The position numbers were made by a program, and so were the translations under genes. Of a stretch of 64,000 nucleotides of DNA, positions 12,592 through 30,809 are shown piece by piece. The DNA lies in assembly GCF_007474605.1 (NCBI RefSeq), contig NZ_VHKL01000003.1, forward strand, positions 409,156 through 473,155, read 5' to 3'. Numbering within the stretch: the first letter of the stretch is position 1; every line of letters starts with the position of its first letter. Under the pieces are notes generated by a model that ran no database searches, was not told the origin of the DNA, and was given only the letters and a program-made list of their open reading frames with translations. This DNA comes from Rhodoligotrophos appendicifer (GTDB lineage: Bacteria > Pseudomonadota > Alphaproteobacteria > Rhizobiales > Im1).

Positions 12592-12666
12592 TGGGGCGTC
12601 GCCAAGTGGTAAGGCAACGGTTTTTGGTACCGTCATTCCCAGGTTCGAATCCTGGCGCCCCAGCCA
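12592..12666 (+). tRNA. tRNA-Gln (anticodon TTG), integration site
   Basis: The acceptor stem is TGGGGCG/CGCCCCA followed by G-CCA. The anticodon stem is ACGGT/ACCGT with loop TTTTGGT, so the anticodon is TTG. The T arm is CCAGG-TTCGAAT-CCTGG. Its last 18 bases are part of the 22-bp repeat that recurs at the far end of the integrated element, so the element reconstitutes the 3' end and the tRNA stays functional. Confidence 0.96.
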
Positions 12667-12670
12667 TCCA
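12649..12670 (+). repeat. attL: left 22-bp attachment repeat in tRNA-Gln
   Basis: These 22 bases cover the last 18 bases of tRNA-Gln plus four bases downstream (TCCA). They recur exactly and in the same orientation at 30788-30809. The flanking bases differ on both sides, so the identity block is precisely 22 bp. The integrase gene starts about 105 bases further on. Confidence 0.92.
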
Positions 12671-12774
12671 TCGTTCTTACCAGTGAACCCGCCTTTTCCT
12701 TGATGTTCCTGGGGTTTTCACCCCTAGTTGTTACGACAACCTGTTACGGGTTGGTGCAACGGGAAGGGGTCAAA

Positions 12775-14580
12775 ATGGCGCTGCAGTCAAACATCGTCAG
12801 AAGGGGCGCCGTTTATTACGTTAGGGTAGCGATTCCCGTCGATCTCCAGGCTCCTGGCAAGCAAAAGGAGGTTTGGAAGAGTCTTCGGACCACGGATCAG
12901 CGCCAAGCCAAGGCTCTAGCAGCGACCGAATTAGCCTCGCTTTATGGGGCCTGGGAACGCAAGCGGGCGACCCTGCGCAGGCCAACAGACGCGGACTTGC
13001 AGCAGCACGCATCGGACCTCTATCGGCTACTTTTGACAGAAGATCATGATCGTCGAGCTAGCATGCCGACGAAGGAAGACATCGCGAAGGAGCGCTCGAA
13101 GTCGCTCTCAGCTGAGCGCATCGTCGAGCGGTACACTGCCGATCAGATCGCATTGCTGGACAATCTCACACCCACAGCAAACCAGCTCTTGGCGCTCGAT
13201 CTCCAGCTCGAAGCAATAATCGCTGAGAACGCCCTCAAGGATGATATTCACAGTAGGACCGTTCTATACGGCACCTTGCGAGAGCATTTGGCGACTGGCG
13301 AAACCGCGCTGGTTAGCTCCCTGGCAGCTGCGACCATACCGGTCAATCGGCCAGGACACCGACAGCTGTGCATGGCGCTCCAGCGGGCATGGCTGGAAAG
13401 CCTGGAGCGCACCTTTGAACGCGACAAAGGCAATTGGGCAGGCAAACCCACTGATCCGATCGTCGACGCCCCTGCCCTCTCCGGATCAACCTCGGCAACA
13501 GGTCGAACGATCATGGAGCTATTCGAGGATTTCGCCCGTGAGAACCCTAGAGCTGTTAAGCCCGACAGTCTTGATCAGTCGAGGAAAGCGGTTCGCCACT
13601 TCGCATCGACTCTGCCGTCAGGATCTGGAGTCGATGCGATCACTAAGGCGAGCGTCTTTGCCTGGAAGCAGCTTCTCATGCAGACGCCAGTGAAAGCGGC
13701 TGAGATCGGCGAGTTCAAGGGGCTAACCCCGGCCCAGGTGGTGAAGAAGAACGAGAAGCTTGGAAAACCAAATATCACGCCGCGCACCGTGAACAAGCTC
13801 CTGACGATGACGTCGGGCTTCATCGGATGGCTAAAGAACAACGGCTTCGTTACGGACAATCCCGTGGCCGGCATGCTCCTGCCAAAGCAGAGGCGCCAAG
13901 TGCTTCGCAGCTATTCGATCGAGCAGCTTGGCGCCCTATTTGGCTCCCCTCTCTATCGAGGCTGCCTCGCCGAGAAGCGTTGGCACATTGCCGGTAATGT
14001 CACCTTCGATGATCATCGGAGATGGTTGCCGCTTCTGGCACTCTTCACGGGCGCCCGCATGGGTGAGTTGGCGCAGCTGGAGACAGAGAATATTCGCGAG
14101 CAACATGGCGTCTGGACGCTGTTCATTACAAACGAGACAACCGACGGTGATGAGAAGGCGGTCAAAAACCGCAGCTCCATCCGCACCGTTCCAATTCACG
14201 ACGAGCTGATCAAGTGCGGCTTCATCAAGCAAGTCGAGGAACGGCGGGCTAAGGGTGAAGGACGACTCTTCCCCGACCTTGTTGCCAACACGCGAGACCA
14301 GATCGCCGGTGCTTACAGCCGAGAATTCGGAAAATTCCTAGAGAAGATCGGCATCAAATTGGATAGCCGGCTGAACTTTCACAGCCTCCGACATACTTTC
14401 GCCGATGGAATGCGGCGCGCAGGCTATCTGGATTATGAATTTGCACACCTGCTCGGCCATGTCGGACAGCTTCAAACATCTAGGTACGGCGACGTGCGTG
14501 AGGGGGAGTTAACCCGCAGCGCTATCATGATCAACGCGATCTCGTATCCAGGGCTAAACCTTCAGCCGCTCCACAAATAG
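12775..14580 (+). CDS. int: Tyrosine recombinase/integrase
   Basis: This 601-residue integrase excises and inserts the element at tRNA-Gln. The catalytic set is complete: R428 (T-G-A-R-M-G-E-L), H536 and R539 (H-S-L-R-H-T-F), H562 (L-L-G-H-V) and nucleophile Y571 (S-R-Y-G-D). The N-terminus (A-L-Q-S-N-I-V-R-R-G-A-V-Y-Y-V-R) matches the short DUF6538-type domain common in proteobacterial integrases. I chose ATG 12775, which has GGGAAGGGG 5-14 bases upstream; an ATG at 12700 would add 25 unlikely residues. It appears intact. Confidence 0.95.
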   Translation: MALQSNIVRRGAVYYVRVAIPVDLQAPGKQKEVWKSLRTTDQRQAKALAATELASLYGAWERKRATLRRPTDADLQQHASDLYRLLLTEDHDRRASMPTKEDIAKERSKSLSAERIVERYTADQIALLDNLTPTANQLLALDLQLEAIIAENALKDDIHSRTVLYGTLREHLATGETALVSSLAAATIPVNRPGHRQLCMALQRAWLESLERTFERDKGNWAGKPTDPIVDAPALSGSTSATGRTIMELFEDFARENPRAVKPDSLDQSRKAVRHFASTLPSGSGVDAITKASVFAWKQLLMQTPVKAAEIGEFKGLTPAQVVKKNEKLGKPNITPRTVNKLLTMTSGFIGWLKNNGFVTDNPVAGMLLPKQRRQVLRSYSIEQLGALFGSPLYRGCLAEKRWHIAGNVTFDDHRRWLPLLALFTGARMGELAQLETENIREQHGVWTLFITNETTDGDEKAVKNRSSIRTVPIHDELIKCGFIKQVEERRAKGEGRLFPDLVANTRDQIAGAYSREFGKFLEKIGIKLDSRLNFHSLRHTFADGMRRAGYLDYEFAHLLGHVGQLQTSRYGDVREGELTRSAIMINAISYPGLNLQPLHK

Positions 14581-14647
14581 CAGGCTCCTGTACATCCACT
14601 AATATGATGAATTAGAAATTTTACATCAATCTATCTGATATTTCTTG

Positions 14648-14697
14648 TTGCACCTCTGATTCGGCGCGCGTACAATATTGTCACGTTAAAATCGTGA
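14648..14697 (+). promoter_or_regulatory. Candidate promoter and operator for the structural operon
   Basis: TTGCAC at 14648-14653 and TACAAT at 14671-14676 are separated by 17 bases, a good sigma-70 arrangement just upstream of the portal gene. An inverted repeat TCACG-ttaaaat-CGTGA at 14681-14697 lies over the predicted start point and could bind a repressor. No other strong promoter is visible between the integrase stop and the portal gene. Based on sequence only. Confidence 0.45.
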
Positions 14698-14706
14698 GCG
14701 CCGAAG

Positions 14707-15951
14707 TTGAATATTGTAGAGACGATCAAGGTGCTGTTTAATCATGCCTCTGATCAAAGCATAGTCGAACAGAAGAGCGCTACACTTGCATACCCTGACG
14801 CAGGGTTGTTCGAGTTGTTCGGCTCCTCTCCCGCTATTTCAGGAATCTCAGTTACTCCAAAGACCGCGATGCAGTGCACCGCAGTTCGTTGCGCCGTGCA
14901 GGCAATCTCCGAGGCTATTGGACAGCTTCCGGTCCACGTCTATTCGCGTGCCGCAGACGGCTCCAAAGAGCGCGCTCCAGAACATCCAGCTTATAGGCTT
15001 ATCCATGACGCCGCGAATGACTGGACAAGCGCCAGCGACTTCCGCGAACAGCTTCAGCGCGATGCCCTGTTACACGGCAATGGCGTCGCGTTCATCAATC
15101 GCGTCGGTGGGAAGCCCGTTGAGCTGCTTCGGCTCGATCCGTCATCGATTTCGATAGATCAGGACACCGCTACCGGCGAGCCAATCTATTCGCAGAACAC
15201 CGGCAAGAGCCGGCAGCGCTTCGCACGGCAAGACATCTTTCACTTGAAGGCCCCAGGCTTCGATGGCGTCAAAGGCGTTGCGCCGATCTATCAAGCCCGT
15301 GAGGCAATTGGCTTGGCGCTCATTCTTGAGCGGCACGGCGCAAGTTTCTTCGGAGCCGGCGGGAAGCCTGACGGCCTGTTGACGACCGACAGTAAGCTCG
15401 GAGCCGATGCAGCTGCTCGCATGGGTGTGGCGTGGAAAGCTACGTTCGGAGGCGGCCGTTCTGGCGGTACGCCCGTACTTGAGGAGGGCCTAAAATATCA
15501 GCCGGTCACCTTCAACAGTACGGATAGTCAATATCTCGAAAATCGCATCTTCCAAATCCAAGAGATCGCACGCGCCTTCCGCGTCCCACCGATTTTTCTT
15601 ATGGAGCTGGGCCGCAGTACGTGGGGCAACGGCGAGACCATGGGCCGCCAATTCGTTGATTACTGTCTCCGGCCTTGGGCTCTTCGGTGGGAGAGCGAGA
15701 TCCGCCTTAAATTGATTCACGGAACAGATCATGAATCACACTTCGCCGAGTTTCTGTTTGATGACTTCCTGAAAGCCGACGCGGTGGCAAGGATGGACGC
15801 ATACAGCCGCGCGATCTCTGCCCGAATACTCAATCCGAATGAAGTCAGGTCGATGGAGAACCGCGCCCCATACAAAGGCGGCGATGCGTTTGCCAATCCC
15901 AATACCAGCTCGGCTGCGACCTCCAGCTTAACGCAGGAGAAGCCGCAATGA
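14707..15951 (+). CDS. Phage portal protein (HK97 family)
   Basis: This 414-residue protein forms the dodecameric portal ring at the capsid vertex. Recognisable family stretches are A-V-R-C-A-V-Q-A-I-S-E-A-I-G-Q-L-P near residue 60, P-A-Y-R-L-I-H near residue 97 and I-A-R-A-F-R-V-P-P-I-F-L near residue 285. The length is normal for the family. The start is uncertain: TTG 14707 follows an in-frame stop at 14695, and GTG 14731 is the next option. The stop overlaps the following ATG (ATGA). The order portal then protease then capsid is the common one. Confidence 0.92.
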   Translation: MNIVETIKVLFNHASDQSIVEQKSATLAYPDAGLFELFGSSPAISGISVTPKTAMQCTAVRCAVQAISEAIGQLPVHVYSRAADGSKERAPEHPAYRLIHDAANDWTSASDFREQLQRDALLHGNGVAFINRVGGKPVELLRLDPSSISIDQDTATGEPIYSQNTGKSRQRFARQDIFHLKAPGFDGVKGVAPIYQAREAIGLALILERHGASFFGAGGKPDGLLTTDSKLGADAAARMGVAWKATFGGGRSGGTPVLEEGLKYQPVTFNSTDSQYLENRIFQIQEIARAFRVPPIFLMELGRSTWGNGETMGRQFVDYCLRPWALRWESEIRLKLIHGTDHESHFAEFLFDDFLKADAVARMDAYSRAISARILNPNEVRSMENRAPYKGGDAFANPNTSSAATSSLTQEKPQ

Positions 15952-16274
15952 GCACGAACTTCCGCACGTTCATCGGCGATGCTGAGCGCGATTTGACGCT
16001 CACTCCAATCATGGTTCTGGAGCTTGAACGCCTGACCGGCATGGGCATCGGCGCCCTTATGAGCCGCGTCACGCATCGGCAGTTTCACCATGCCGATCTG
16101 CTCCAGATCATACGCCTCGGCCTCATTGGCGGCGGCGAAGCTCCAGAGCGTGCAGCTCAGTTCGTCCAGATATACGTCGCACCGCGCCCAATTTCCGAGA
16201 TCCTTCCGGGCGCGATCGGCGCCTTAGAGGCGCTTTGGTTCGGCAGCGCTCCCCAGGAGGAAAACCGCCAATGA
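15948..16274 (+). CDS. GTA gp10/tail-assembly-chaperone-like protein
   Basis: This 108-residue protein has the pattern of the gene-transfer-agent gp10 (Phage_TAC) family: R-D-L-T-L-T-P-I-M-V-L-E-L-E-R, a glycine-rich turn, then H-A-D-L-L-Q-I-I-R-L-G-L-I-G-G-G. Members assist tail-tube or tape-measure assembly and normally sit beside the tail tube gene. Here it lies between portal and protease, overlapping both neighbours by 4 bases. No tail tube gene was found in the element. The family call is moderately secure; the position is odd. Confidence 0.7.
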   Translation: MSTNFRTFIGDAERDLTLTPIMVLELERLTGMGIGALMSRVTHRQFHHADLLQIIRLGLIGGGEAPERAAQFVQIYVAPRPISEILPGAIGALEALWFGSAPQEENRQ

Positions 16275-16768
16275 ACCGGCTTGAATTCAAGGCTGATCTC
16301 AGCACCGACGATGCAGGCGCCATCACCGGCCTTGCATGGCCATTTGGCTCCGCCGATCACATCGGCGACATGATCGAGAAGGGAGCTTTCACCGGCCCCG
16401 CTAAGATTCCCATGCTCTTCGGTCATGATCCCAAACAGCCGATCGGCGTTTGGGAAAGCGCCACCGAGACGAATACTGGCCTGGAGGTTCGCGGCCGTCT
16501 GCTTGTGGATGACGTAGCGCGCGCTCGTGAAGTTCACGCCTTGGTCAAGGCCGGCGCCCTGTCGGGCTTGTCGATTGGCTTCAGAACAAAGAAGGCCATC
16601 ACCCGCAAGGGTGGCGGTCGCACAATCCAATTGCTGGAATTGGCCGAGATCAGTCTCGTGACCATCCCCATGCACCCCGGCGCCAAAGTTACGAGCGCCA
16701 AATCCGCCGAAGCAGCAATCGCGATCGCAGAGGCAATCAACCGGGCCGCGATGGCTCTTCGAGCATAA
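16271..16768 (+). CDS. HK97-family prohead protease
   Basis: This 165-residue serine protease matures the capsid by removing the delta domain of the major capsid protein. The catalytic His is in L-F-G-H-D-P (H52), and the Ser region is G-A-L-S-G-L-S-I-G-F (residues 95-104). AGGAGG precedes ATG 16271, which overlaps the previous stop. It is directly followed, after 10 bases, by the capsid gene that it should process. Length is typical and it appears complete. Confidence 0.93.
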   Translation: MNRLEFKADLSTDDAGAITGLAWPFGSADHIGDMIEKGAFTGPAKIPMLFGHDPKQPIGVWESATETNTGLEVRGRLLVDDVARAREVHALVKAGALSGLSIGFRTKKAITRKGGGRTIQLLELAEISLVTIPMHPGAKVTSAKSAEAAIAIAEAINRAAMALRA

Positions 16769-16778
16769 GGACACGACC

Positions 16779-17930
16779 ATGACGATGATGATTAAGGGCA
16801 TGCCGTACGGCGCGCCGATTGAGCTGAAGGGCGAAGAGCCCGACGCCGAGGGCATCGTGACCAAGGCCCTGGATGCCTTGACGGCCTCGGTTGACGAGCG
16901 TCTGAAGGCGATCGAGACAAAGTCGGGCGAGCGCATCGATCAGCTCGAAGCCAAGATCAACCGGCCTTCGATCATCACCGGCAAAGCCGATGACATGTCC
17001 GAAGAGCGCAAGGCGTTCGATGCTTATCTTCGGCATGGCAAGGAAGCTGGCGCGGAAGAGCTGAAAACGCTTATCGTCTCAAGCGATCCCCAGGGCGGCT
17101 ATCTCGCGCCTGCTGAAATGTCGAGCGAGTTCATTCGCGAGCTGGTTGAGTTCAGCCCGATCAGGCCACTTGCCAGCGTACGCACCACTTCGGCGCCGTC
17201 TGTCACCTATCCACGCCGCACCGGCATCACCAACGCGAAGTGGAAGGGCGAGATTCAGGCGTCTGAAGCATCCGAGCCGGCTTTTGGGCAGGTCGAGGTG
17301 CCGATCCGCGAGGTGAACACGTACGTCGATGTGAGCAATCAATTGCTTGCAGACAGCGCCGGCACTGCCGAGGCAGAGGTTCGTCTTGCCCTGGCCGAAG
17401 ACTTTGGAGCCAAGGAAGGACTCGCGTTCGTTTCTGGCGATGGACCGCTTCAGCCCGAAGGTCTGATGACTAACGCCGACGTGCTGAGCACGGCTACGGG
17501 AAACGCGGCAACGCTTGGCACCAATCCGGCCGATCTCCTGATCAGCCACATGTACCTGCTTCCGGCCTCTTATCGTACCCGTGGCACGTGGCTGATGAAC
17601 GGCTCCACGCTCGCGGCCATCCGCAAGCTTAAGGACGCCAGCGGCCTCTATCTTTGGCAGCCTTCATATCAGGTAGGTGCGCCGGAGATGATCCTTGGAC
17701 GCGCGGTGATCGAGATCCCTGACCTCGATGACGTAGGCGCCGGAACGGCTCCGATCCTGTTCGGTGACATAGCCACGGCTTACCGCATCGTGGATCGCGT
17801 CAGCCTCTCGATCCTCGTGAACCCGTACATCCTGGCGACGAACGGCATCACCCGTATTCATGCGACCCGCCGCACCGGCGCGGCCGTTGTGCAGCCGAAG
17901 GCGATCCGCAAGATCGTCTGCTCGGTTTAA
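16779..17930 (+). CDS. Major capsid protein (HK97 fold)
   Basis: This 383-residue protein has an N-terminal charged delta or scaffold segment (about residues 20-95, coiled-coil-like). The HK97-fold shell domain begins near S-S-D-P-Q-G-G-Y-L-A-P. The family stretches P-I-R-P-L-A-S-V-R-T and L-A-E-D-F-G-A-K-E-G-L-A-F-V-S-G-D-G are present. The prohead protease just upstream should cleave between the two parts. It is intact and of usual length, so capsid assembly is plausible. Confidence 0.95.
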   Translation: MTMMIKGMPYGAPIELKGEEPDAEGIVTKALDALTASVDERLKAIETKSGERIDQLEAKINRPSIITGKADDMSEERKAFDAYLRHGKEAGAEELKTLIVSSDPQGGYLAPAEMSSEFIRELVEFSPIRPLASVRTTSAPSVTYPRRTGITNAKWKGEIQASEASEPAFGQVEVPIREVNTYVDVSNQLLADSAGTAEAEVRLALAEDFGAKEGLAFVSGDGPLQPEGLMTNADVLSTATGNAATLGTNPADLLISHMYLLPASYRTRGTWLMNGSTLAAIRKLKDASGLYLWQPSYQVGAPEMILGRAVIEIPDLDDVGAGTAPILFGDIATAYRIVDRVSLSILVNPYILATNGITRIHATRRTGAAVVQPKAIRKIVCSV

Positions 17931-17945
17931 GATAGGTCACCCCCG

Positions 17946-18380
17946 ATGCGCGACAATTATCATTCTACAAAGGTGGCCGAGGCGATCGCCCCAGCCGTCC
18001 TGGCCGCCGACAACACTCCGGTGGCAATCGACCTTCTCGGCTTCAACAGCGCCACGCTGGCGCTGCATGTAGGCGTAGGTGGCATCACTTTCACCGGCAC
18101 AAACAAGATCGAGTTCAAGCTGACGCATTCAGTCGATGGCGTCACCTATGACGCGGTTGAACGGAGCGACGTGCTTGGCGTCGATGCAGTAGGCGCCGGG
18201 GGCATTATCAAGGCCCTCATCGCTGCTCACCCTGCATCTGCCGTCTATCGCATCGGCTATGTCGGCTATCGCCGCTACATCAAGGTGCTTGCCGACTTCA
18301 GTGGCACCCATGGCACCGGCACGCCCATTGCCGCTACTGCGATTTTGGGCAACGCACAGCTTCGCCCGGTCGCGGCCTAA
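17946..18380 (+). CDS. Capsid-adjacent phage protein of unknown function
   Basis: This 144-residue protein is rich in predicted beta strands (V-A-I-D-L-L-G-F-N-S-A-T-L-A-L-H-V-G-V-G, then R-I-G-Y-V-G-Y-R-R-Y-I-K-V). It lies 15 bases after the capsid gene. Proteins with this pattern are common next to capsid genes in alphaproteobacterial prophages and are likely virion surface or decoration proteins, but I know no proven function. No membrane span or signal is visible. It does not look like a tail tube protein. Confidence 0.7.
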   Translation: MRDNYHSTKVAEAIAPAVLAADNTPVAIDLLGFNSATLALHVGVGGITFTGTNKIEFKLTHSVDGVTYDAVERSDVLGVDAVGAGGIIKALIAAHPASAVYRIGYVGYRRYIKVLADFSGTHGTGTPIAATAILGNAQLRPVAA

Positions 18381-18587: not shown

Positions 18588-19190
18588 ATGCGCTTAGCAG
18601 CAGACGAAATCACCCTAACGATCGCCGGCGAGACAGTGCGTCTCAGACCGACGCTGCGCGCAGCGACCCGCCTTGAGCGCCAGTTCTCCGGCTTTCATAA
18701 GCTGCTGCTTGCAGTGCACCAGGGGAGCGTCTCAGCCATCGCCGCTGTTATTAGAGAGTGTGCCGATCATGCCAGCGGAATCCCTCACAACCTTGAGATG
18801 CTCGCAGGTTATGTTCTCACGACTGGCATCGAGTATCTGATCGCCCCTATCAGTGATCATGTTCTCCGACTTGCGGGCGTGGATGACGAGCCCGAAGAGC
18901 CGGCGGCAGAGAACAAAACTTCCGCCACGCCTGTTTCCATCGCTGAGTATCATCGGACGCTCTTCGAGTTCGGCACAGGCTGGCTCGGTTGGACGCCTGA
19001 GACGACTTGGAACGCAACGGCGGCTGAGATCCTGGCCGCCTACGCGGGCAAAGCGTCCATGCTCAGGGCAATCTATGGCACCGCCGAGCCTGCCGAGACA
19101 AAGCCGAATTTTCACACCGAACACCAACGCGCCGAAGGCATCCTCACATTGAAAATGATGCAGGCCTTTGGCGCAAATAGGGCCGCGTGA
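18588..19190 (+). CDS. Second tail-assembly-chaperone-like protein
   Basis: This 200-residue protein opens with E-I-T-L-T-I-A-G-E-T-V-R-L-R-P-T-L-R-A-A-T-R-L-E, split here for length, a pattern seen in tail chaperones of gene-transfer-agent-like phages. A C-terminal extension (W-L-G-W-T-P-E-T-T-W-N-A-T) resembles the second half of frameshifted chaperones. Its usual partners, tail tube before and tape measure after, are absent or displaced: the tape measure is 5 kb away. The start at 18588 is preferred over TTG 18426. The function is inferred. Confidence 0.55.
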   Translation: MRLAADEITLTIAGETVRLRPTLRAATRLERQFSGFHKLLLAVHQGSVSAIAAVIRECADHASGIPHNLEMLAGYVLTTGIEYLIAPISDHVLRLAGVDDEPEEPAAENKTSATPVSIAEYHRTLFEFGTGWLGWTPETTWNATAAEILAAYAGKASMLRAIYGTAEPAETKPNFHTEHQRAEGILTLKMMQAFGANRAA

Positions 19191-19191
19191 G

Positions 19192-19410
19192 ATGAGCCAG
19201 CACGTCATCCGTTCCCACGGTCAAACGACACTCGTCAGCAACGAGCAAGGCCCCATGGGGCCAGTCGGCCCGCGCGGCTTAAGCGGCGAAGTGAGCATCG
19301 GAGACTTGCCCGTTGTCATCACAGATCCCCAGGCCGGTCAATGGCTTCAGATCAACGCAACCGGCGACAGCTGGGCGAATGAAAACGTAATCGATGGCGG
19401 CAATTTCTGA
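19192..19410 (+). CDS. Short collagen-like phage protein
   Basis: This 72-residue protein contains five consecutive Gly-X-Y triplets (GPM GPV GPR GLS GEV) at residues 20-34, then a beta-rich tail. Collagen-like runs in phage proteins trimerise fibres or spikes. The ATG at 19192 lies one base past the preceding stop and its own stop overlaps the next ATG. The next gene encodes a head-spike base homologue, so this is likely a spike or fibre component. The residues are seen directly; the role is inference. Confidence 0.65.
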   Translation: MSQHVIRSHGQTTLVSNEQGPMGPVGPRGLSGEVSIGDLPVVITDPQAGQWLQINATGDSWANENVIDGGNF

Positions 19411-19676
19411 TGACTCAAACGGACCCTTTCGCAGATCTCGCGCGTGGATATGACAGCTTCGTTGATCGTCATTTCCTGATCGTCCCTTCCAACGATCTCG
19501 ACCTCGAAATCAAGCCCCGGGCGATCTATTGCCATGTCCCCGGCACAGTCGTCGTTCGTGACGAGCACGGAACCGATCTGCCCTACGAGATGAATTGGTC
19601 TGGCGGTTTAATCTGTGTCCGCGCCGTTCGTGTCCTGGCGACCGGCACGACCGGCACCTATTACGGTTGGGTGTGA
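19410..19676 (+). CDS. Head spike base protein (RcGTA Rcc01079-like)
   Basis: This 88-residue protein matches the family of the Rhodobacter gene transfer agent head-spike base. It shows an N-terminal D-P-F-A-D-L-A-R, the K-P-R-A-I-Y-C-H-V-P-G-T-V-V-V-R-D core and the C-terminal R-A-V-R-V-L-A-T-G-T-T-G-T. In RcGTA the head spikes aid binding to the recipient's surface polysaccharide. It lies directly after a collagen-like gene and overlaps the HNH gene start (TGATG). This links the module to alphaproteobacterial GTA-type virions. Confidence 0.75.
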   Translation: MTQTDPFADLARGYDSFVDRHFLIVPSNDLDLEIKPRAIYCHVPGTVVVRDEHGTDLPYEMNWSGGLICVRAVRVLATGTTGTYYGWV

Positions 19677-22738: not shown

Positions 22739-24345
22739 TGGCGGCGAACACGTATCCAGCCTGGATCTATGACGGCAGCCCGATTGACGATCCCCTTGGA
22801 CACGGCGAGCGCGCGGTCAAATTTCTGCGCCTTCTGAAGCACCCGAAGAATCCCGCCAAGGGTCATCCGTTCCAGCTCGACGTATGGCAGGAGCGGATCG
22901 TCCGGCGCATCTATGGGCCTCGCCATGAGGACGGCACCCGCATCATCAAAACCGTTGTGCTGCTCCTGCCTCGTGGCAACCGCAAGACGGCCCTGGCTGC
23001 TGCCCTGGCGCTGCTTCATACGATCGGCCCTGAGAAGATTGCAGGCGGCGAGGTGCTATCCGCTGCCTCGGATCGCAAGCAGGCTCGGCTTGGATATGCC
23101 GAGGCCCTTGGCATCGTCCGCGCCGACCCTCGCATTGCCCGCGCCGTCAGCGTTCAAGACTACAGAAACCGGCTCACCCTGAAGAGCGCCGGCTCATTCT
23201 ACGAAAGTATTAGCTCGGACGCCGGCACTCAGCACGGCCGCACCCCGGCCTTCGTGCTCGCGGATGAGCTTCACGCCTGGAAGAAACGCGACCTTTGGGA
23301 CGTTGTTCGCAGCGGATTGCCCAAGACCAAGGGCAGCTTGCTTGTGATCGCCACAACAGCAGGACGCGGCCAGGACAATCTTGCGCATGACATCGTGAGC
23401 TATGCCCGCAAAGTCGCTCTTGGCGAGATCATCGATCCGAGCTGCCTGCCGGTCCTGTTTGAAACATCGGCCGATGCCGATTGGAAAGATGAGGCAGTCT
23501 GGCGCCGCGCCAATCCTGGCCTCGCCCATGGTTATCCTGACATCGAAGGTTTGCGCCAGCTGGCCCGCGAGGCCGAGCATCGCCCAAGCGATCGAGAGGC
23601 ATTCCGGCAGCTGCACCTAAACGTCTGGCTTGATCATAGTAGCTCGCCATTCGTGGAGATGAGCGTCTATGACGAGGGCAACTGGCCGATCGACCTGGAG
23701 GCCCTGGTGGGACAGCCGTGCTGGATCGGTGTGGATCTGTCATCGAATAGCGACCTGACGGCCGTTGTCGCTGCCTTCCGCGATGATGATGATGTTTACA
23801 CCGCCGTGCCAACGTTCTTCTGCCCTGCTGATAACTTGCGTGGCCGCACAGAGCAGTCCGGTCAGCCCTATTCGCGATGGGCGCAGGAAGGTCAGATCAT
23901 TGCCACACCGGGCAACGTGGTCGACTTCCGCGCAGTCGAGGACACGATCCGCGACCTCTGCGCCAATTACGACGTTAGAGAGATAGCTTTCGATCCGCAT
24001 CTCGGCCGCGTGATGATGAGCAACCTCGCCGATGATGGCTATCCCGCGATCGAGATGCGCCAGGGCTGGATCACCATGGCTCCGGCGATCAAGACGCTGG
24101 AGCGGGCAATCCTCGGTCGCAAGTTCCGGCATGGCGGTCACCCGGTGCTCCGCTGGAATTTCTCGAACATTGAAGTCGAGACCGACAAGGCAGGGAACAA
24201 GACGTTCCACAAGGGAAAATCGAAAGACAAGATCGACGGCGCCCAGGCCGCAGCGATGGCAGTTGGTCGCGCGTCTCAGGGCGAAAGCAATCGCAGCATC
24301 TATTCGGACACCGCAGCAAGGCCCCATGGCCTGCTTACTTTTTAA
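22738..24345 (+). CDS. terL: Large terminase subunit (ATPase and nuclease)
   Basis: This 535-residue DNA-packaging motor has a Walker A variant L-L-P-R-G-N-R-K-T (about residues 76-84) and Walker B F-V-L-A-D-E (172-177). The C-terminal RNase-H-like nuclease has its first Asp in I-G-V-D-L-S-S-N-S-D (near residue 330) and further acidic residues downstream (A-F-D-P-H; D-K-I-D-G-A). The length is normal and there is no frame break. It lies after the connector genes, whereas most phages place terminases before the portal. Confidence 0.95.
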   Translation: MAANTYPAWIYDGSPIDDPLGHGERAVKFLRLLKHPKNPAKGHPFQLDVWQERIVRRIYGPRHEDGTRIIKTVVLLLPRGNRKTALAAALALLHTIGPEKIAGGEVLSAASDRKQARLGYAEALGIVRADPRIARAVSVQDYRNRLTLKSAGSFYESISSDAGTQHGRTPAFVLADELHAWKKRDLWDVVRSGLPKTKGSLLVIATTAGRGQDNLAHDIVSYARKVALGEIIDPSCLPVLFETSADADWKDEAVWRRANPGLAHGYPDIEGLRQLAREAEHRPSDREAFRQLHLNVWLDHSSSPFVEMSVYDEGNWPIDLEALVGQPCWIGVDLSSNSDLTAVVAAFRDDDDVYTAVPTFFCPADNLRGRTEQSGQPYSRWAQEGQIIATPGNVVDFRAVEDTIRDLCANYDVREIAFDPHLGRVMMSNLADDGYPAIEMRQGWITMAPAIKTLERAILGRKFRHGGHPVLRWNFSNIEVETDKAGNKTFHKGKSKDKIDGAQAAAMAVGRASQGESNRSIYSDTAARPHGLLTF

Positions 24346-24354
24346 GGACAGATC

Positions 24355-26451
24355 ATGGCCATTGATGACGGTGAACGGCTGGTGTTGCTTCTGGAGGCCA
24401 GGATCACCCAATTTGAAAAGAACCTTCAGAAGGCTAATCGCACCGCCGGCAGATCGTTCGGCGATATTGAGAAACGCGGTCAGCAAAGCGCCGCACGCCT
24501 CGAAACGTCTTTCACAAGAGCTGGCGCAGGAGTGCAGGCCGGCATCGGTCGATTGAACGGCGCCCTTGGCACCTTGGGTTTGGGCGCCGGCATTGGCGTT
24601 GCCGCCGCAATTGCCTCGATCAAAACCGCCGTGAATGACCTCGCCACAGTTGCGGCAGATGCCAAGATGGCCGGTTTAGATAACGGCACCTTTCAGGAGT
24701 TGTCGTTCGCCGCTGGTCAATCTCGGATCGGCATTGATGCCGTCACTGATGGACTAAAGGAGCTGCAGCTTCGCGGTGACGAGTTCGCCGTCACCGGCAA
24801 GGGCAGCGCGGCCGAAGCCTTCGCACGCATTGGAATGACGCCAGAGGAAGTGCAGACCCGGCTCAAAGATCCTGCTGATATGCTCGAAACGATCATGGGA
24901 CGAATTCATGATCTTGATCGAGCAGCACAGATCCGCATCCTTGACGAGCTGCTTGGCGGGACCGCCGGTGAGCAGTTCATTCGGTTTCTCGCTCACGGCC
25001 AGGACGGCATCGCCAAACTTCGCCAGGAAGCTCGCGACACCGGCATGGTGCTTTCGGACGACGTTTTGGCCGAGGCCGAGAAGATCGATCGTGAGTTCTT
25101 AAAGATTAGCACGACGATCGACCGGAACATCAAAGGCTCCATCGTCTCCGTCATTGCCGCTACTCGTGAGTGGCTGGAGGAACTTCAGAAGGGATTGACG
25201 GAAATTGGCAGTTCCTCGATCTGGATGCGCATAGCCAATGCTCTGCCGCAAGATCCTTTCGCGCCTAAGCCGACCCTGATCAATGAGTGGAATGTTGCCG
25301 GCACCCAGTTGGCCGAGCTGATTCAAGATCAAGGGTCCTGGGAACTGCAGCTTGCCGACGCCCGCAAAGTTGCAGCTGAGACCGGCATCGATGTTGATCG
25401 CGACCGTGTGAAGGTGATCGAGGACCGGATTGCGGCTCTGAAGCGCGAGGAACAACAGCTCAGGGCTATGCCGGGCACGCCTAGCACGCCGTCGTATGGG
25501 CGGGCGAACGTCCAGAAATTTCCAGCCGAACCCAAGCCCTTTACTCCGGGGGAGACAGAGGCCGAGCGTAGGGCGCGAGAAGCGGCCGAAAAAGCCAGAG
25601 CAGACGCGGCAAGAGCTGCGCAGCGGGAGGCTGACGGAATTGCACGTGTGATCGATCAGCTTCGATTCGAGGAGGCTCAGCTTGGCCGCACGGAGGTTCA
25701 ACAGCGGATCGCAAATGAGCTTCGCAACGCTGGCACTGCCACGACCAGTGCACAGCGCCAGGAGATAGAGCGGCTTGTAAACGCCACTTATGAGCAGGAA
25801 CAGGCGGCAGCCGCCGCAGAGGAAGCACAGCGCAAGCTCACGGCCGCATGGGACGCTGCAGAAGGTATTGCAGCGAATGCACTAGGTGATGTGATCAGCG
25901 GCTTGAGGCAGGGAGAGAGCGCGGCGGATGCCCTGTCTGCTGCGCTTGATCGTGTGATCGACAAGCTGATTGACATGGCTACTCAGGAAGCCACAAGCGC
26001 CTTGTTCGACTTTGGCAAGACTGCGCTCGGATTCGGTGGTGCCGCATCCGGACCTACCTCGATCGTTCCGCCGGGGTTCGCCAAAGGTGCGGCATTCGAC
26101 AGTGGCCGTATAACACCATTCGCGTCCGGTGGAGTGGTCAATCGGGCGACGCTCTTTCCCATGCGCAACGGGACAGGCTTAATGGGCGAGGCTGGACCAG
26201 AGGGCATCCTGCCTTTGCGCCGGTTGCCCGGCGGCGATCTTGGAGTGCAGAGCACGACTGGACGGGGCGGCGGCAATGTGCAGACGATTACGCTCGCGCC
26301 ATCGGTCACGATCAATGCCAAGGGCGGCACTCAGGAGCAGAACAAGGATCTCGCCGATCAGGTCACGACGCAGATCGAGCGGTCGATGCGCGGTCTGATA
26401 GCAGTTGAACTTCGGCAACAGATGCGTCCGGGAGGTTTGCTGTACGCCTAG
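24355..26451 (+). CDS. Tail tape measure protein
   Basis: This 698-residue protein sets tail length in siphophages. It has an N-terminal coiled region, a glycine-rich hydrophobic helix at 66-90, and a long Ala/Glu/Arg coiled coil around 400-500. The C-terminus F-A-S-G-G-V-V then M-G-E-A-G-P-E-G-I-L-P-L-R-R is typical of tape measures. It is the last rightward gene of the element. Nothing downstream encodes distal tail, baseplate or receptor-binding proteins. It is short, implying a tail of roughly 100 nm at most by the usual proportionality. Confidence 0.9.
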   Translation: MAIDDGERLVLLLEARITQFEKNLQKANRTAGRSFGDIEKRGQQSAARLETSFTRAGAGVQAGIGRLNGALGTLGLGAGIGVAAAIASIKTAVNDLATVAADAKMAGLDNGTFQELSFAAGQSRIGIDAVTDGLKELQLRGDEFAVTGKGSAAEAFARIGMTPEEVQTRLKDPADMLETIMGRIHDLDRAAQIRILDELLGGTAGEQFIRFLAHGQDGIAKLRQEARDTGMVLSDDVLAEAEKIDREFLKISTTIDRNIKGSIVSVIAATREWLEELQKGLTEIGSSSIWMRIANALPQDPFAPKPTLINEWNVAGTQLAELIQDQGSWELQLADARKVAAETGIDVDRDRVKVIEDRIAALKREEQQLRAMPGTPSTPSYGRANVQKFPAEPKPFTPGETEAERRAREAAEKARADAARAAQREADGIARVIDQLRFEEAQLGRTEVQQRIANELRNAGTATTSAQRQEIERLVNATYEQEQAAAAAEEAQRKLTAAWDAAEGIAANALGDVISGLRQGESAADALSAALDRVIDKLIDMATQEATSALFDFGKTALGFGGAASGPTSIVPPGFAKGAAFDSGRITPFASGGVVNRATLFPMRNGTGLMGEAGPEGILPLRRLPGGDLGVQSTTGRGGGNVQTITLAPSVTINAKGGTQEQNKDLADQVTTQIERSMRGLIAVELRQQMRPGGLLYA

Positions 26452-26460
26452 GTGTCGAGC

Positions 26461-26482
26461 GATCTACCGAGGAAAGTAGATC
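26461..26482. terminator. Candidate hairpin between convergent tape measure and HEPN genes
   Basis: A perfect 7-bp inverted repeat GATCTAC-cgaggaaa-GTAGATC lies in the 29-base gap between two converging genes and reaches into the HEPN stop codon. No run of T follows on either strand, so a Rho-independent terminator is only weakly supported. Confidence 0.35.
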
Positions 26483-27398
26483 ACTCTTCAAGAATTTTCA
26501 GCACCAGTGATCGAGCTAACTCGGTTGCATCCTGACTTAGTTGTGCCACGTCAAGACCGTCTAATCCTTCGTCACCATGAAGAATTTTACCCCTTTTGGA
26601 ATATATTCTCGCAAATTCTCTTGACGCTTCTTTTGAAATGTATTTCCGAACGATGCGTTTACAAGCCGCAGTAGGACCCTCTTTTAGCTGCCAACCGATG
26701 ATCTCCGATACCCGCTTCTTAGTTTCGATGGCCGCATCGGAATTATCAACTGCCGCCATCGCAATTTGAAGGAGATCACGTTCTGCGTCTGGCCGCGCTT
26801 CACTTATGGCCAACGCCTCAATAGCAGAAATAGCCAATATGAATTTAGCAACATGAGATTTTTCTATGTAAGCAGATGATAAAAACTCAACAGATCTTTT
26901 AACAACATCATTTACTATCATTTTGTCGCCAAAATACTGGCACATCGTTTCTATAAATATCTCCGGAGAACCGGTGACTGTACCAGTGGCTTCAAATTTC
27001 ATGTATATAGTAGGAATTTTCTCGCTGTACACAGATAGGCCAAGCACATTGTCAGCGAGCCTATGACCAAACTTTCTAAAAATATCGTCTTTGACTGTTT
27101 GCCCCCACCCTGAAGTCGGGAGGTCTTTTCCGAGGTTTACCCCTGATCTGGTGGAAACAGACGTTACCAGAAGAGCTCTCTTGACACGTTCACCGAAATC
27201 ACGAGCGGTGGATTCTGACTCTAGCCCTTCAGCTTTCAAAACCAGCTCAGTAACCTTCTTCAGCGGTTCTTCTGATCGTGACAGAAGGGAAACCGGTACT
27301 CCCGCAAGTGAAAAATCGAGTCTCGGCTCGTCACTGGTCACCGACCTTCCAGTGAAGAACCGCAGACGCATTGTGTACGTCTCTGGTGAATCCGCCAT
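26481..27398 (-). CDS. HEPN-like domain protein, probable cargo or defence gene
   Basis: This 305-residue protein has a C-terminal all-helical region resembling Apea-type HEPN domains: S-H-V-A-K-F-I-L-A-I-S-A-I-E-A-L-A near residue 190 and S-K-R-G-K-I-L-H-G-D-E-G near residue 275. The latter gives the R-x4-H motif expected of HEPN ribonucleases. The N-terminal half is unassigned. The start could also be GTG 27413, which abuts the upstream stop; ATG 27398 has GGGA ahead. AT-richer codon use than the head module suggests a separate origin. An RNA-cleaving defence function is inference. Confidence 0.6.
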   Translation of the reverse strand: MADSPETYTMRLRFFTGRSVTSDEPRLDFSLAGVPVSLLSRSEEPLKKVTELVLKAEGLESESTARDFGERVKRALLVTSVSTRSGVNLGKDLPTSGWGQTVKDDIFRKFGHRLADNVLGLSVYSEKIPTIYMKFEATGTVTGSPEIFIETMCQYFGDKMIVNDVVKRSVEFLSSAYIEKSHVAKFILAISAIEALAISEARPDAERDLLQIAMAAVDNSDAAIETKKRVSEIIGWQLKEGPTAACKRIVRKYISKEASREFARIYSKRGKILHGDEGLDGLDVAQLSQDATELARSLVLKILEE

Positions 27399-27413
27399 TT
27401 TGTGTCCCGACAC

Positions 27414-28066
27414 TTAGGGTGTGAACGCCTTCCAGATTCCGTCGGCCTCTAGGGCTCTAATAACGTCTACTCCACGACGCACCTTGAATCGGTTGATATC
27501 CTTCCACCGGGGGAGTTCTCGCATGCGACTGGCGATTGTCTCTAAGGTCGCGCCTGCGCCCCGTTCCATGCGCTCTTTGACTTCAGCAAACCAAAGCTCA
27601 GCGTAAAATTGCTCTCGGCCTTTAATCTTTCTAAGGCGTGGGGATAGAGGCGAAGTCGACGTTGCAGCGAGCAGCTTCACCCGCCGCTCCAAACACTCTG
27701 CTTTTAGGCGCTCGTGAAAGGCCGAGGCTTTAGCGCGGGCCGCGTCCAGCTTCTGGTTTTCCTCTGCTTTGCGACTGGCCGCGTTGCGCGCGCGCGTGAT
27801 CCGGCGCTTCGCTGACGCAGCAATCGCATAAACCTGTGAGAATATTGCCTGTAATCAGCCCTGAGCTTCTCGTTCTTTTCCTTCCACTCAGGGATGTTCT
27901 CTAGGAGCCGCCTAGCTTCCTCATCCTCGTCCTTGGCATCTTCCTCATCAACTTCCGGCTCAACAGGTCCACGGGACCATTCATAACCCAACGGCTGACC
28001 GGGCTGAGACAGTTTTTTCCCGCCGGATGCCTCGGTACCATCATCTTCAGTGTCACCGTTCGACAT
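27414..28066 (-). pseudogene. Single gene broken by a frameshift near 27830-27860
   Basis: Reading leftward, a frame opens at ATG 28066 (acidic segment E-P-E-V-D-E-E-D-A-K-D-E-D-E-E-A, then L-R-A-D-Y-R-Q-Y-S-H-R-F). It continues out of frame to 27704 as a low-quality Arg-rich tail. A second frame, open from 27854 to the stop at 27414, carries well-formed sequence (R-K-A-E-E-N-Q-K-L-D-A-A-R-A-K, then E-R-R-V-K-L-L-A-A). Joining them near 27840 gives one protein of about 215 residues. The 653-base span is not a multiple of three. No slippery heptamer is evident, so mutation or a sequencing error is likelier than programmed shifting. The function is unknown. Confidence 0.6.
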
Positions 28067-28113
28067 CGCCAGCCTCTACAATGTGTCGCCCAAGCGCCAG
28101 CAGCTGGCATCTA

Positions 28114-28575
28114 TTACGCGGCCCGCTCTGCCGCGAGGCGGATCTGATGGGCGAATTCCTGTGCAATCGAAACCGGCATTACGCGCTTGGCGGCTGTCTC
28201 AGTCAGGTCGTCATGAATAGCTAGCCGAACCGCTGAGCCGACGCGATCGACTTCCATCTTATCGCTGGTACTCTTGAATGAAACCGACGCCCTGCCAGCT
28301 TTGTGCGAGATCTGATCGATAGCATTTGCCAGTCCAATCGCCTCGCTTACGTTCAATCCAGCGGTGGTGATGTTCTCAACCGTGATCGCGATCCGAAGTC
28401 CGACGTTGGTTTTAACAACTTCGGCGCCCAGACCGGGCATGTCTCGACTGAGACCTTCCTTCTCCAGCTCCTGAGCGATTAAGCTACCAAGGACCTCCGT
28501 CATGGGCTTGCCATGGTGCCTGGACAGCCGCTTCAACTGCGAAGCCCGTTCATCTGGAATTTTAAGCATGGCCAT
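28114..28575 (-). CDS. Ribbon-helix-helix-like protein, possible regulator
   Basis: This 153-residue protein has an N-terminal segment (L-K-I-P-D-E-R-A-S-Q-L-K-R-L, then G-K-P-M-T-E-V-L-G-S-L-I-A-Q-E-L-E-K) that fits a strand plus two helices of the Arc/MetJ class. The remaining 100 residues are unassigned. AAGGGAG lies 6 bases before the ATG. It is the only candidate DNA-binding regulator in the element and is transcribed from the repeat-rich gap. It may control the element or belong to an antitoxin-like group; no toxin partner is obvious. Confidence 0.5.
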   Translation of the reverse strand: MAMLKIPDERASQLKRLSRHHGKPMTEVLGSLIAQELEKEGLSRDMPGLGAEVVKTNVGLRIAITVENITTAGLNVSEAIGLANAIDQISHKAGRASVSFKSTSDKMEVDRVGSAVRLAIHDDLTETAAKRVMPVSIAQEFAHQIRLAAERAA

Positions 28576-28599
28576 CTGAGGCTCCCTTATTACAAGCTA

Positions 28600-28655
28600 T
28601 ACTTATAATACCAGTTATATCACTTGTGAGCAATAATCTCGAAAGTTACTGGTTA
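28600..28655 (-). promoter_or_regulatory. AT-rich promoter region of the RHH-like gene with ACCAGT/ACTGGT boxes
   Basis: The 50 bases upstream of the leftward gene are AT-rich with TATAAT-like steps (minus-strand TATTATA around 28604-28610). ACCAGT at 28610-28615 and ACTGGT at 28648-28653 form widely spaced inverted boxes. This suits a small autoregulator, but the evidence is only positional. Confidence 0.35.
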
Positions 28656-28672
28656 TCCGGTGACTATGGCTT

Positions 28673-28739
28673 CCTTCTATCTAGCACAGGGTGTGTCCTC
28701 TTGCGCTTATGTTGGACACACCCTGTGCTAGACAGAAGG
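28673..28739. repeat. 26-bp inverted repeat with one mismatch
   Basis: The left arm 28673-28698 and right arm 28714-28739 are complementary at 25 of 26 positions around a 15-base spacer; the mismatch is at 28679/28733. The inner 19 bp pair perfectly and contain TCTAGCACAGGG and TGTGTCC. The same core recurs nearby at about 28770-28782 (minus orientation) and 28827-28845 (plus orientation), so the arms belong to a repeated-box family rather than a lone terminator. Confidence 0.85.
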
Positions 28740-28769
28740 GCTTGAAATGCATTTTTCGTTGAAAAAACT

Positions 28770-28845
28770 TGTGCTAGACAGACTAGATACAAATTGGCTG
28801 ATTTCGGCCGTTTTCTTCAGTATTTGTCTAGCACAGGAAATGTCC
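28770..28845. repeat. Two further CTAGCACA boxes (iteron-like)
   Basis: TTGTGCTAGACAG at about 28769-28781 is the reverse complement of the CTGTCTAGCACAA form. TGTCTAGCACAGG with a trailing TGTCC occurs at 28826-28845. With the two inverted-repeat arms this makes four copies of a CTGTCTAGCACAGG-like box in 170 bases, two in each orientation. Confidence 0.7.
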
Positions 28846-28862
28846 CTATTATTAGTCTTGGA

Positions 28863-28878
28863 AGTGTAGAGGTACACT
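28863..28878. repeat. 16-bp palindrome AGTGTA-gagg-TACACT
   Basis: Six-base perfect arms flank a four-base spacer, directly after the CTAGCACA box array. The size fits a dimeric repressor site. There is no gene start nearby on the plus strand until 29335, so its target is unclear. Confidence 0.5.
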
Positions 28879-28916
28879 AAAGACAAGTATCTAATCTTTC
28901 GATGAGCCCCGGGCTC

Positions 28917-28980
28917 GCTCCGCTCGCAAGAAAGAGCTCCGCTTGCGCTCCGCGAGATCGGCGCCTCCGGCCCGCTCCGC
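28917..28980. repeat. Four GCTCCGC repeats in a GC-rich block
   Basis: GCTCCGC occurs at 28917-28923, 28936-28942, 28947-28953 and 28974-28980. It lies within a block that also contains short palindromes such as GAGCC-ccg-GGCTC. The block is much richer in GC than the AT-rich DNA around it. No coding frame is persuasive here. Confidence 0.6.
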
Positions 28981-29334
28981 GGGACCGTCGTCCGATCTCC
29001 AGAAAGCATTTCCCCCTACCGAAGATATCAGATCCTCCGGTATGGGGTCCGGTTCGCAAGGCGTCTTCAATCTCCAAACACCCTCCGGTTCCCAGCACCG
29101 CCTCCAGGCCTGCAGCCGCAACGTCCGGCGAAAACCTCAGCGTGCCGCGCGGAACAAGTAAATTCACTATAAAACAACTACTCCCGGTACATTTCACAAC
29201 AAAAATAAGTAAGTACTGACTTACTGAATTATCTTAGGAAATAAATAGAGTTTTAATTTGCGTTTTACCGCAAGACATGCGAATCAGTTCAATGCCCGGT
29301 GTCGGCGGGTGCTTTGATTTAGGGGAGCCGCAGA

Positions 29335-29520
29335 GTGAAAAATGTTTACATAGATAATCAGTTATACCGAACGTTGGTAGTTACTCTTGAGAACCGCCAG
29401 CTTTGTCCCGCTTCCGGGGAAACTGAGGACGTGGCGATGCTGTTAGGGCATGCCGGCGTCTGGCCTAAGTGGATTAAAGATGACGTAAGGCGCAGCGAAG
29501 CTCATGAACAAGCTAGATAG
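29335..29520 (+). CDS. Small hypothetical protein
   Basis: A 61-residue frame starts at GTG 29335, preceded by AGGGGAG at a good distance. The product (K-N-V-Y-I-D-N-Q-L-Y-R-T-L-V-V at the start, charged at the end) matches no family I recognise. It has no membrane span or signal. It is the only rightward frame in the right arm of the element and could be a small regulator or excisionase, but there is no direct evidence. It may not be a gene. Confidence 0.35.
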   Translation: MKNVYIDNQLYRTLVVTLENRQLCPASGETEDVAMLLGHAGVWPKWIKDDVRRSEAHEQAR

Positions 29521-29579
29521 CCCCTGGGATCGCCTGCGAGGGGTGCTGGAGAACCAAGATCGCTTTTGATCTGTGGGAA

Positions 29580-30539
29580 TTATGCGCCGATAACTTCCAC
29601 CGGCTTGCCCGCAGAGCGCAACTCGACTCTTAGTACGCCGTTCTGGCGCGCCAGTGTCTGTCCGGGCTTTCGCATATTCGCCTCGTAATCGGGGCGAGCA
29701 AGCAGGCTGCCAATCTGGCGGCCGACGAGAGTGAAATCTATATGTTGCCATCTCGCCTGGCATTGCTGCGAAAACTGAATTACGAGCGATGTACCTCCAG
29801 CGGACATGGGCATCCAAAAAGCATTACCGTTGGGGATTGGCATATACGGAGGTAGAAACTGAACAGTGCTGTCAGGGGCAATGAGACCAGCTTCCGCCAA
29901 CCGTTTCCACCTGGCGAACCATTCCCCGCGTTGAAACTCAATGCTGTAATCGACAGCGTTGCCGACACTCTTAGCCCAGACCAGGGTGAAATCTTGTGCG
30001 ACTGCCTGATCCAATTCGGAAACTGCTCGAAGGGTTCTCAACGCGAATGATCCCGGTCGAGTAACCTCGCCCACCAAAATACCCGCAAACAAGTGTTGTA
30101 ATTGCTCGGATGACGCGTCTTCTGCGAAGCGCATGAATGAGTTCATCCAATCGTCCCCTGGAGGAGCCGCCTTACTGTCGTCGCCAACGGCCGAAGCCTC
30201 ATCAGCCAGATGCTCCGTCGCTCGCTGTGCGACCTGCATCCTGTTCATTACCTTGCGGACCGTAGTTGGCAAATAAATCTCGGCTGCAGCTTGCATAACA
30301 GTGGGGTCGTTCAGTCCCATCTCGGCAACACCCTTGGCTAGCGTTGCTGCCACGTAGGACCTTGCCGCCGTGATATCCTCTACCGACTGAGCCGGCCTTT
30401 TCATTAATGCTGCGGGAATCGCAGTAACTCCGCCCAGCAAATTGCTAAGAGCTTTTAGAAAACTCGTCTTAACTGGGGCAGGTAAGTTGGCGGCTCCCTC
30501 CATTATGGTCGCGACGGTGGTTATTTCTTCTTTGTCCAT
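29580..30539 (-). CDS. DUF2806-domain protein, probable cargo gene
   Basis: This 319-residue protein has DUF2806 features: a helical N-terminus, then D-D-W-M-N-S-F-M-R-F-A-E-D-A-S-S near residue 128, and L-F-A-G-I-L-V-G-E-V-T-R-P-G-S-F-A-L-R-T-L near residue 150. The function of DUF2806 is not established; members often occur in mobile elements. It is the last gene before the right attachment repeat, a position where prophages and islands typically keep cargo such as defence or fitness genes. It appears intact and is monocistronic. Confidence 0.75.
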   Translation of the reverse strand: MDKEEITTVATIMEGAANLPAPVKTSFLKALSNLLGGVTAIPAALMKRPAQSVEDITAARSYVAATLAKGVAEMGLNDPTVMQAAAEIYLPTTVRKVMNRMQVAQRATEHLADEASAVGDDSKAAPPGDDWMNSFMRFAEDASSEQLQHLFAGILVGEVTRPGSFALRTLRAVSELDQAVAQDFTLVWAKSVGNAVDYSIEFQRGEWFARWKRLAEAGLIAPDSTVQFLPPYMPIPNGNAFWMPMSAGGTSLVIQFSQQCQARWQHIDFTLVGRQIGSLLARPDYEANMRKPGQTLARQNGVLRVELRSAGKPVEVIGA

Positions 30540-30787
30540 TGGCCGTCCAATTCACATAAATAAGCGTGGGCCCTTCCCAACCAGTGATCTTAACGTCATT
30601 TATTGTGCTCGCAAACTCACCTGTCTCACTGGCTTACGTCGCCTCTAGCCGGTCCATGCGGTTACCAAGGTGACTGCGAACTTAGATAAGACAATCACGC
30701 CATTCTGCATCAAGCAGGTGTTACGGGCAGAACCACAGCTATAAATATTAATCTATTTAATTCAAATACTTATGGGAATTTGTGGCC

Positions 30788-30809
30788 ATCCTGGCGCCCC
30801 AGCCATCCA
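30788..30809 (+). repeat. attR: right 22-bp attachment repeat
   Basis: This is an exact copy of 12649-12670, i.e. the tRNA-Gln 3' end plus four bases, without the rest of a tRNA. Composition changes sharply here, from AT-rich element DNA to GC-rich chromosome. Together with attL it fixes the element length at 18,139 bp. Confidence 0.92.

Follow-up and report, generated by a model that had tools for sequence, protein, structure and literature searches.

In the current view, phage satellites take over complete tails. To our knowledge, chimeric tails have been shown only for the PICI-like elements (PLEs), in which the head is the helper's. Here we describe an element that encodes its own head and part of a tail, at positions 12649-30809 of a 64,000-nucleotide stretch of the Rhodoligotrophos appendicifer genome (contig NZ_VHKL01000003.1; the whole stretch is hereafter called the "window"). 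In the PLE system, mass spectrometry, western blotting and tmp deletion revealed tails in which the satellite's own tape measure protein and tail assembly chaperone (TAC) are combined with the helper's tube and baseplate (PMC12987554). PLE11 virions contain the satellite tape measure and a hub protein together with the phage tube, sheath and baseplate, tail length follows the satellite tape measure, and the deletion of tmp reduces the transduction of PLE1, PLE4 and PLE11 (PMC12987554). The same study reports tmp genes in other putative satellites, including the capsid-forming phage-inducible chromosomal islands (cf-PICIs), and its Extended Data Fig. 10 depicts cf-PICIs with putative tmp genes (PMC12987554).

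The window element is a cf-PICI-like satellite, which most likely builds chimeric tails. We consider it probable that this is an intact integrative satellite with its own head, neck and packaging genes, and that its ruler (the tape measure), chaperones and terminator enter a chimeric tail together with the tube and tip of a helper phage. The evidence consists of the att sites, the gene content, the fixed size, the conservation across genera, the lack of tube, tip and lysis genes, and the full-length tape measure and chaperone genes without a tube gene. An outside source of the tube would explain why the tape measure and chaperones are kept in its absence. The element itself is real, intact-looking and conserved across genera, and its gene set is not a product of chance, because the same gene order recurs in dozens of genomes.

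The element is inserted in a tRNA-Gln gene, with 18,139 bp between its terminal repeats. An earlier reading of the window made without database searches (hereafter the sequence-only reading) had placed exact 22-bp repeats at the ends, and the two copies are indeed identical. The features are as follows.

12592-12666, + strand: tRNA-Gln(ttg), the integration target (ARAGORN)
12649-12670, no strand: attL, exact 22-bp repeat over the tRNA 3' end
12775-14580, + strand: tyrosine integrase, DUF6538 and Phage_integrase (Pfam; start codon chosen by us, longest open reading frame (ORF) from 12700)
14707-15951, + strand: portal protein (Pfam PF04860, E 8e-95; PHROG)
15948-16274, + strand: tail assembly chaperone, GTA-gp10/TAC_11 type (Pfam PF11836, E 2e-20; phrog_8985)
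16271-16768, + strand: prohead protease, Peptidase_S78 (Pfam, E 1e-24)
16779-17930, + strand: major capsid protein, HK97 type (Pfam PF05065, E 1.5e-79)
17946-18380, + strand: capsid cement/decoration-like jelly-roll protein, phrog_5707, 144 aa (AlphaFold model, fold matches, gene position)
18588-19190, + strand: second tail assembly chaperone, fused TAC_11 and TAC_6 (Pfam and family profiles)
19192-19676, + strand: small ORFs, collagen-like (19192-19410) and phrog_12296 "tail fiber" (19410-19676) (PHROG)
19676-20005, + strand: HNH endonuclease of the packaging module (PHROG)
20002-20904, + strand: three small ORFs of 107, 106 and 92 aa, without an assigned role
20901-21185, + strand: head-tail connector, gp6-like (Pfam/PHROG)
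21185-21607, + strand: HK97 gp10-like neck/tail completion protein (Pfam/PHROG)
21604-22014, + strand: tail terminator/tail completion protein, gp17 type (Pfam/PHROG)
22011-22328, + strand: head completion/head closure protein, Phage_HCP
22328-22738, + strand: terminase small subunit, TerS (Pfam/PHROG)
22738-24345, + strand: terminase large subunit, TerL (Pfam/PHROG)
24355-26451, + strand: tape measure protein, 698 aa (phrog_10574, E 5e-114)
26481-30539, - strand: variable cargo/regulatory end, with proteins of 310, 92, 120 and 153 aa and a 319-aa DUF2806 protein
30788-30809, no strand: attR, exact 22-bp repeat, displaced copy of the tRNA 3' end

The integrase, portal, protease, capsid, connector, TerS and TerL genes are all open frames (Pfam/PHROGs), as the sequence-only reading had held. 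The neck, tail terminator, head-completion and HNH genes are open as well. The sequence-only reading had also listed no tail tube, baseplate, receptor-binding, lysis or replication gene; the Pfam and PHROGs scans of the window ORFs yielded no tube, baseplate, hub, tip, lysis or replication family. What it overlooked are the two chaperones of the GTA-gp10 type (15948-16274 and 18588-19190) and the small fibre-like ORFs at 19192-19676.

Relatives were collected with an alignment of terminases. At least 141 related loci are present in sequenced genome contigs, and 80 of them were kept. Nearly all of these come from named alphaproteobacteria, which include Kaistia, Propylenella, Methylocapsa, Martelella, Azospirillum, Salipiger, Rhizobium and Sphingobium; Kaistia soli belongs to the Hyphomicrobiales, the order of the R. 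appendicifer host. An even sample of this order contains a relative in 32 of 397 genomes, and the sample of the class in 8 of 385. Viral contigs yielded more than 500 terminase relatives among the matches listed. Among 50,697 phage records, the closest TerL is 38.7% identical, and none exceeds 39%, a level that the 141 genome loci surpass. The view that such satellites are little described in alphaproteobacteria is supported.

Is the size of the element fixed? We relied on genomic segments of ~33-50 kb, where longer elements could show, and left the 21.6-kb loci, which skew toward small elements, out of the size claim; further repeat-bounded elements were seen among the named 21.6-kb loci. In the longer segments, 13 relatives lie between tRNA-anchored repeats (17-67 bp long) with a spacing of 16,865-18,768 bp; the tRNA genes concerned are those for Leu, Gln, Thr, Ser, Pro and Arg. 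No such repeat was found in four of the segments (G346, G012, G369 and G262). The window gene order is shared by 11 of the 13, the conserved order being portal-TAC-protease-capsid-[cement/tube]-TAC-HNH-connector-neck-terminator-closure-TerS-TerL-tape measure. As a check, the sequence-only reading had proposed to look in related genomes for this gene order at tRNA-Gln and for a constant size near 18 kb; related genomes do carry the order, at tRNA genes, with repeats 16.9-18.8 kb apart. The description of an ~18-kb, capsid-forming, satellite-like island that is tail-less in the sense of lacking the tube and tip is also supported. The narrow size range fits a packaging limit, not random decay. 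Single copies do decay, since the TerL gene of one relative (G065) is frameshifted.

The relatives, sorted with profiles built from the family, fall into three classes: head-only elements, elements with neck, tail tube and tape measure, and elements of the window type (TAC-protease-capsid-TAC), with or without a tube. The head-only class is an upper bound, as two of its members turned out to hold a divergent tape measure. The tube family in the relatives is phrog_158, a major tail protein, and 12 window-type elements, the window element included, lack it. In nine of these 12, the gap between the capsid and chaperone genes is 6-23 bp, as compared to ~500-1,200 bp in the tube-bearing elements; in the other three, including the window element, the cement gene fills the gap. 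All 12 have long open frames for the chaperones, terminator and tape measure, and these frames span nearly the whole profile. A tape measure without a tube also occurs in other lineages (L061, L062 and L102). The sequence-only reading had called the tape measure and terminator unexpected; they are conserved family features, and they fit the chimeric-tail mechanism shown for the PLEs (PMC12987554).

In a quick TerL tree, the tail types are strongly clustered (22 changes versus 45 in shuffles), yet they switch several times, so that a single recent loss does not account for the tube-less form. In Martelella, head-only and tube-bearing elements are sisters in this tree. Three elements of the family (L069, L084 and L088), head-only and tube-bearing ones among them, share a single Martelella lutilitoris genome. 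Two head-only elements, L059 (11788-15639) and L115 (12434-16058), have by-eye kinase-, helicase- and ATPase-like cargo behind TerL, which may be defence genes.

How far do the tail genes of the relatives reach toward the tip? Among the non-core genes between the tape measure and the integrase at 25 loci, Pfam identified no hub, fibre or lysis family, and only two gpM-like minor tail proteins (in L069 and L099). When the loci were compared with the tip proteins of two prophages of the window genome, three loci matched with Dit-like genes and one with a gp13-like gene, and no hub or fibre was recognised. A distal tail protein is present in L066, L079, L117 and L127. The furthest into the tip is L117 (13502-14739, Neorhizobium sp. 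SOG26), with tape measure, distal tail protein and gp13-like genes before the integrase; its portal and capsid escaped the family profiles.

The sequence-only reading had hinted that the 144-aa protein at 17946-18380 might be the tail tube. Instead, the structure search revealed a jelly roll like that of capsid cement proteins. The AlphaFold model, built from a 44-sequence alignment, has a pLDDT of 88.9. Of the PDB entries, Foldseek ranked 9hz8 first, a protein from the capsid of Agrobacterium phage 7-7-1. VIA-align gave this match a Z score of 9.7, with 10.3 for 8fwg l1 (Milano neck/portal-vertex chain) and 9.4 for 3j4u (BPP-1 jelly-roll cement protein). Two Bacillus prophage proteins, YomS and XepA, score highest (11.5 and 11.1), and the fold alone is therefore no proof of cement identity. 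Matches of the search to the lambda tail tip, to GOLD domains and to VP2 of infectious bursal disease virus are of the ordinary beta-sandwich kind. The gene also sits behind the capsid gene in head-only relatives, with copies 62-66% identical to that of the window, and one complete prophage of this genome (C5) likewise has it after the capsid gene. Moreover, L057, L077, L108 and L122 carry both the phrog_5707 gene and a separate tail tube gene, and this co-occurrence and the cement-like fold rule out the tail tube assignment. On the grounds of the modelled fold, the gene position and this co-occurrence, we assign the protein as a capsid cement or decoration protein.

How would the element obtain a working tail? 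We propose that the integrase would excise the element from the tRNA-Gln att site during growth of a helper phage in the same cell. The satellite would then make a small head from its portal, protease, capsid and cement proteins, with its own neck, and its own HNH, TerS and TerL would fill this head with the ~18-kb element DNA. To the tail, the satellite would contribute the tape measure, the two chaperones and the tail terminator, while the helper would supply the tube subunits and the tip/receptor-binding complex. In the resulting chimeric tail, the helper tube and tip would be assembled around the satellite ruler, and the satellite terminator would cap the tail to fit the satellite head. 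The helper would also provide lysis and perhaps replication. We infer the induction by a helper, the small capsid, the chimeric tail and the identity of the helper.

A candidate helper, and no more than that, is a prophage in the same genome (G000:C3, ~222-252 kb; L023). Its head is unrelated, with a Phage_cap_E capsid and a lambda-type portal, but its tape measure is 41% identical over 593 aa to that of the satellite, and its chaperones are homologous; it also has a tube and a tail tip. The same genome contains a second satellite (L024 5681-17227, G000:C9:237681-249227), 11.5 kb long at tRNA-Phe with a 51-bp repeat. It encodes an integrase, an HNH protein, a 611-aa tape measure, TerS, a capsid-like protein and a helicase; no portal, TerL or tail tip was recognised. 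It is another case of a tape measure without a tail. A further locus (L025, G000:C3:364-384 kb) combines a protease-capsid-portal-terminator cluster with a short tape measure, and may be the gene transfer agent (GTA) of this genome or a prophage remnant.

Several points weigh against an intact, helper-dependent satellite with chimeric tails. The induction, excision, packaging, particles and transduction of the element are predictions from its genes. No AlpA, primase or replication gene was recognised in it by Pfam or PHROGs, although some relatives have a primase or helicase. An empty integration site was sought in the genus and none was found, because the flanks differ in the few available genomes of the family. 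Co-residence does not identify the helper, because a prophage in the same genome is often of no help; the cf-PICI of E. coli EDL933 was moved by none of its 17 resident prophages (PMC11389934). Finally, there is a slight chance of a very divergent tail tube, the 107- and 106-aa ORFs being unassigned; the model of the 106-aa ORF has a confidence of 64, which is too low for a fold search.

The element could instead be a classical cf-PICI that takes whole helper tails, with the tape measure, chaperones and terminator as relics of a phage ancestor that have no present role. By the published account, cf-PICIs need nothing from the helper but its tails (PMC10690885), and many relatives of the same terminase family—the head-only ones—show neither tape measure nor neck. 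However, the two chaperones, the terminator and the tape measure are full length in 12 tube-less elements from several genera, and the tape measure without a tube recurs in the other lineages and in the second satellite described above. We judge this explanation to be unlikely.

The three unassigned small ORFs and the small fibre-like ORFs within the structural block would be consistent with a complete miniature phage, with unrecognised tube and tip, that spreads alone. These ORFs, however, are not conserved in the other tube-less members and there is no room for tip genes; in addition, lysis genes are lacking and isolated phages include no close relative, making such a phage very unlikely. 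It is even harder to credit that the tape measure and chaperones act mainly as a decoy, binding the tube and tip subunits of the helper to block its tails, with incorporation as a side effect. Satellites and prophages do carry systems that block tail assembly (PMC11364771), and Rta of PLE11 targets a tape measure (PMC12987554), but the terminator, neck and closure genes for a working joint are also kept, and many relatives keep the tube. The "decayed prophage" option of the sequence-only reading, a deletion remnant of a full prophage, accounts for the missing tube, tip, lysis and replication genes but is strongly contradicted by the same content and size in many genera, the intact att sites and integrases, the open structural genes (the 12 tube-less elements keep every other one at full length), and the absence, among the loci examined, of any 35-45-kb prophage with these genes plus tail and lysis genes.

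The chimeric-tail satellite therefore remains our preferred reading. With less confidence, we suggest that the capsid-forming satellites of alphaproteobacteria may be a radiation of their own, and an old one, whose members differ by degrees in tail autonomy. Tail swapping by ruler and chaperone substitution would then be a general route, independent of the PLEs, by which satellites select and switch helpers. As part of the same tentative proposal, the radiation would span elements with a head only, elements with head, neck, chaperones and ruler that borrow the tube and tip, such as the window element, and elements with the whole shaft that borrow only the tip. The window element has its own head, and its terminase family, found in culturable bacteria, retains tail genes in three defined steps. 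The chimeric-tail idea thereby becomes testable in alphaproteobacteria, and a comparison of close relatives that have the tube gene with those that lack it makes it directly testable which tail parts have to match between satellite and helper, and where host range is set.

As for the remaining genes, the small ORFs at 19192-19676 perhaps encode a head fibre, judging from their neighbours in L112, L069 and L071; relatives of phrog_12296 adjoin the capsid gene even in L112, which is head-only. At the minus-strand end, the N-terminal part of the 153-aa protein looks like a ribbon-helix-helix by eye. The 310-aa protein (26481-27413) contains RGKILH, by eye a HEPN-like RxxxxH motif, and its gene has a GC3 of 0.41, below the rest of the element; it is recent cargo, possibly for defence. 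PADLOC matched nothing among the cargo genes except a weak ZorG, with no match for the 310-aa protein, and a defence role was not adopted.

Among the known systems, the cf-PICIs (e.g., EcCIEDL933) are integrative, encode their own portal, protease, capsid, connectors, HNH, TerS and TerL, and have no complete tail (PMC10690885). The window element likewise has an integrase, att sites and unit length, its own capsid, protease, portal and head-tail connectors, and its own TerS, TerL and HNH endonuclease, and it lacks the tube, tip and fibres. In contrast, its host is an alphaproteobacterium, outside the main host groups named in PMC10803314, its size is ~18 kb versus the cf-PICI mean of 14 kb, and its ORFs include neither the AlpA-type regulator nor the primase/replication module of PICIs (Pfam/PHROG). 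It adds a tape measure, two chaperones and a terminator, and many relatives add even a tail tube. We have not filed the element as a cf-PICI, since by the published definition a cf-PICI obtains its entire tail from the helper (PMC10690885). The window element lacks the tail tube, tip and lysis genes of a complete temperate phage, and none of the relatives examined has the full set.

The RcGTA-type gene transfer agents share the GTA-gp10-type chaperones and the alphaproteobacterial hosts, but they are fixed chromosomal clusters with tail tip genes, whereas the window element is mobile: it has an integrase, att sites and TerS/HNH, its family occupies different tRNA genes, and it has no GTA tip genes. 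Streptomyces MulchRoom and MiniFlayer also have their own capsid and packaging genes, with a tail that is apparently the helper's in the case of MulchRoom (PMC10690885), but they have no reported tape measure, live in another host phylum and use virulent helpers. The PLEs of Vibrio cholerae, like the window element, have their own tape measure and chaperone, as judged by gene presence only, and add the helper tube and baseplate (PMC12987554). Unlike the PLEs, which have no capsid of their own and remodel helper capsid proteins, the window element encodes its own head, with an HK97-type capsid, and its own terminase.

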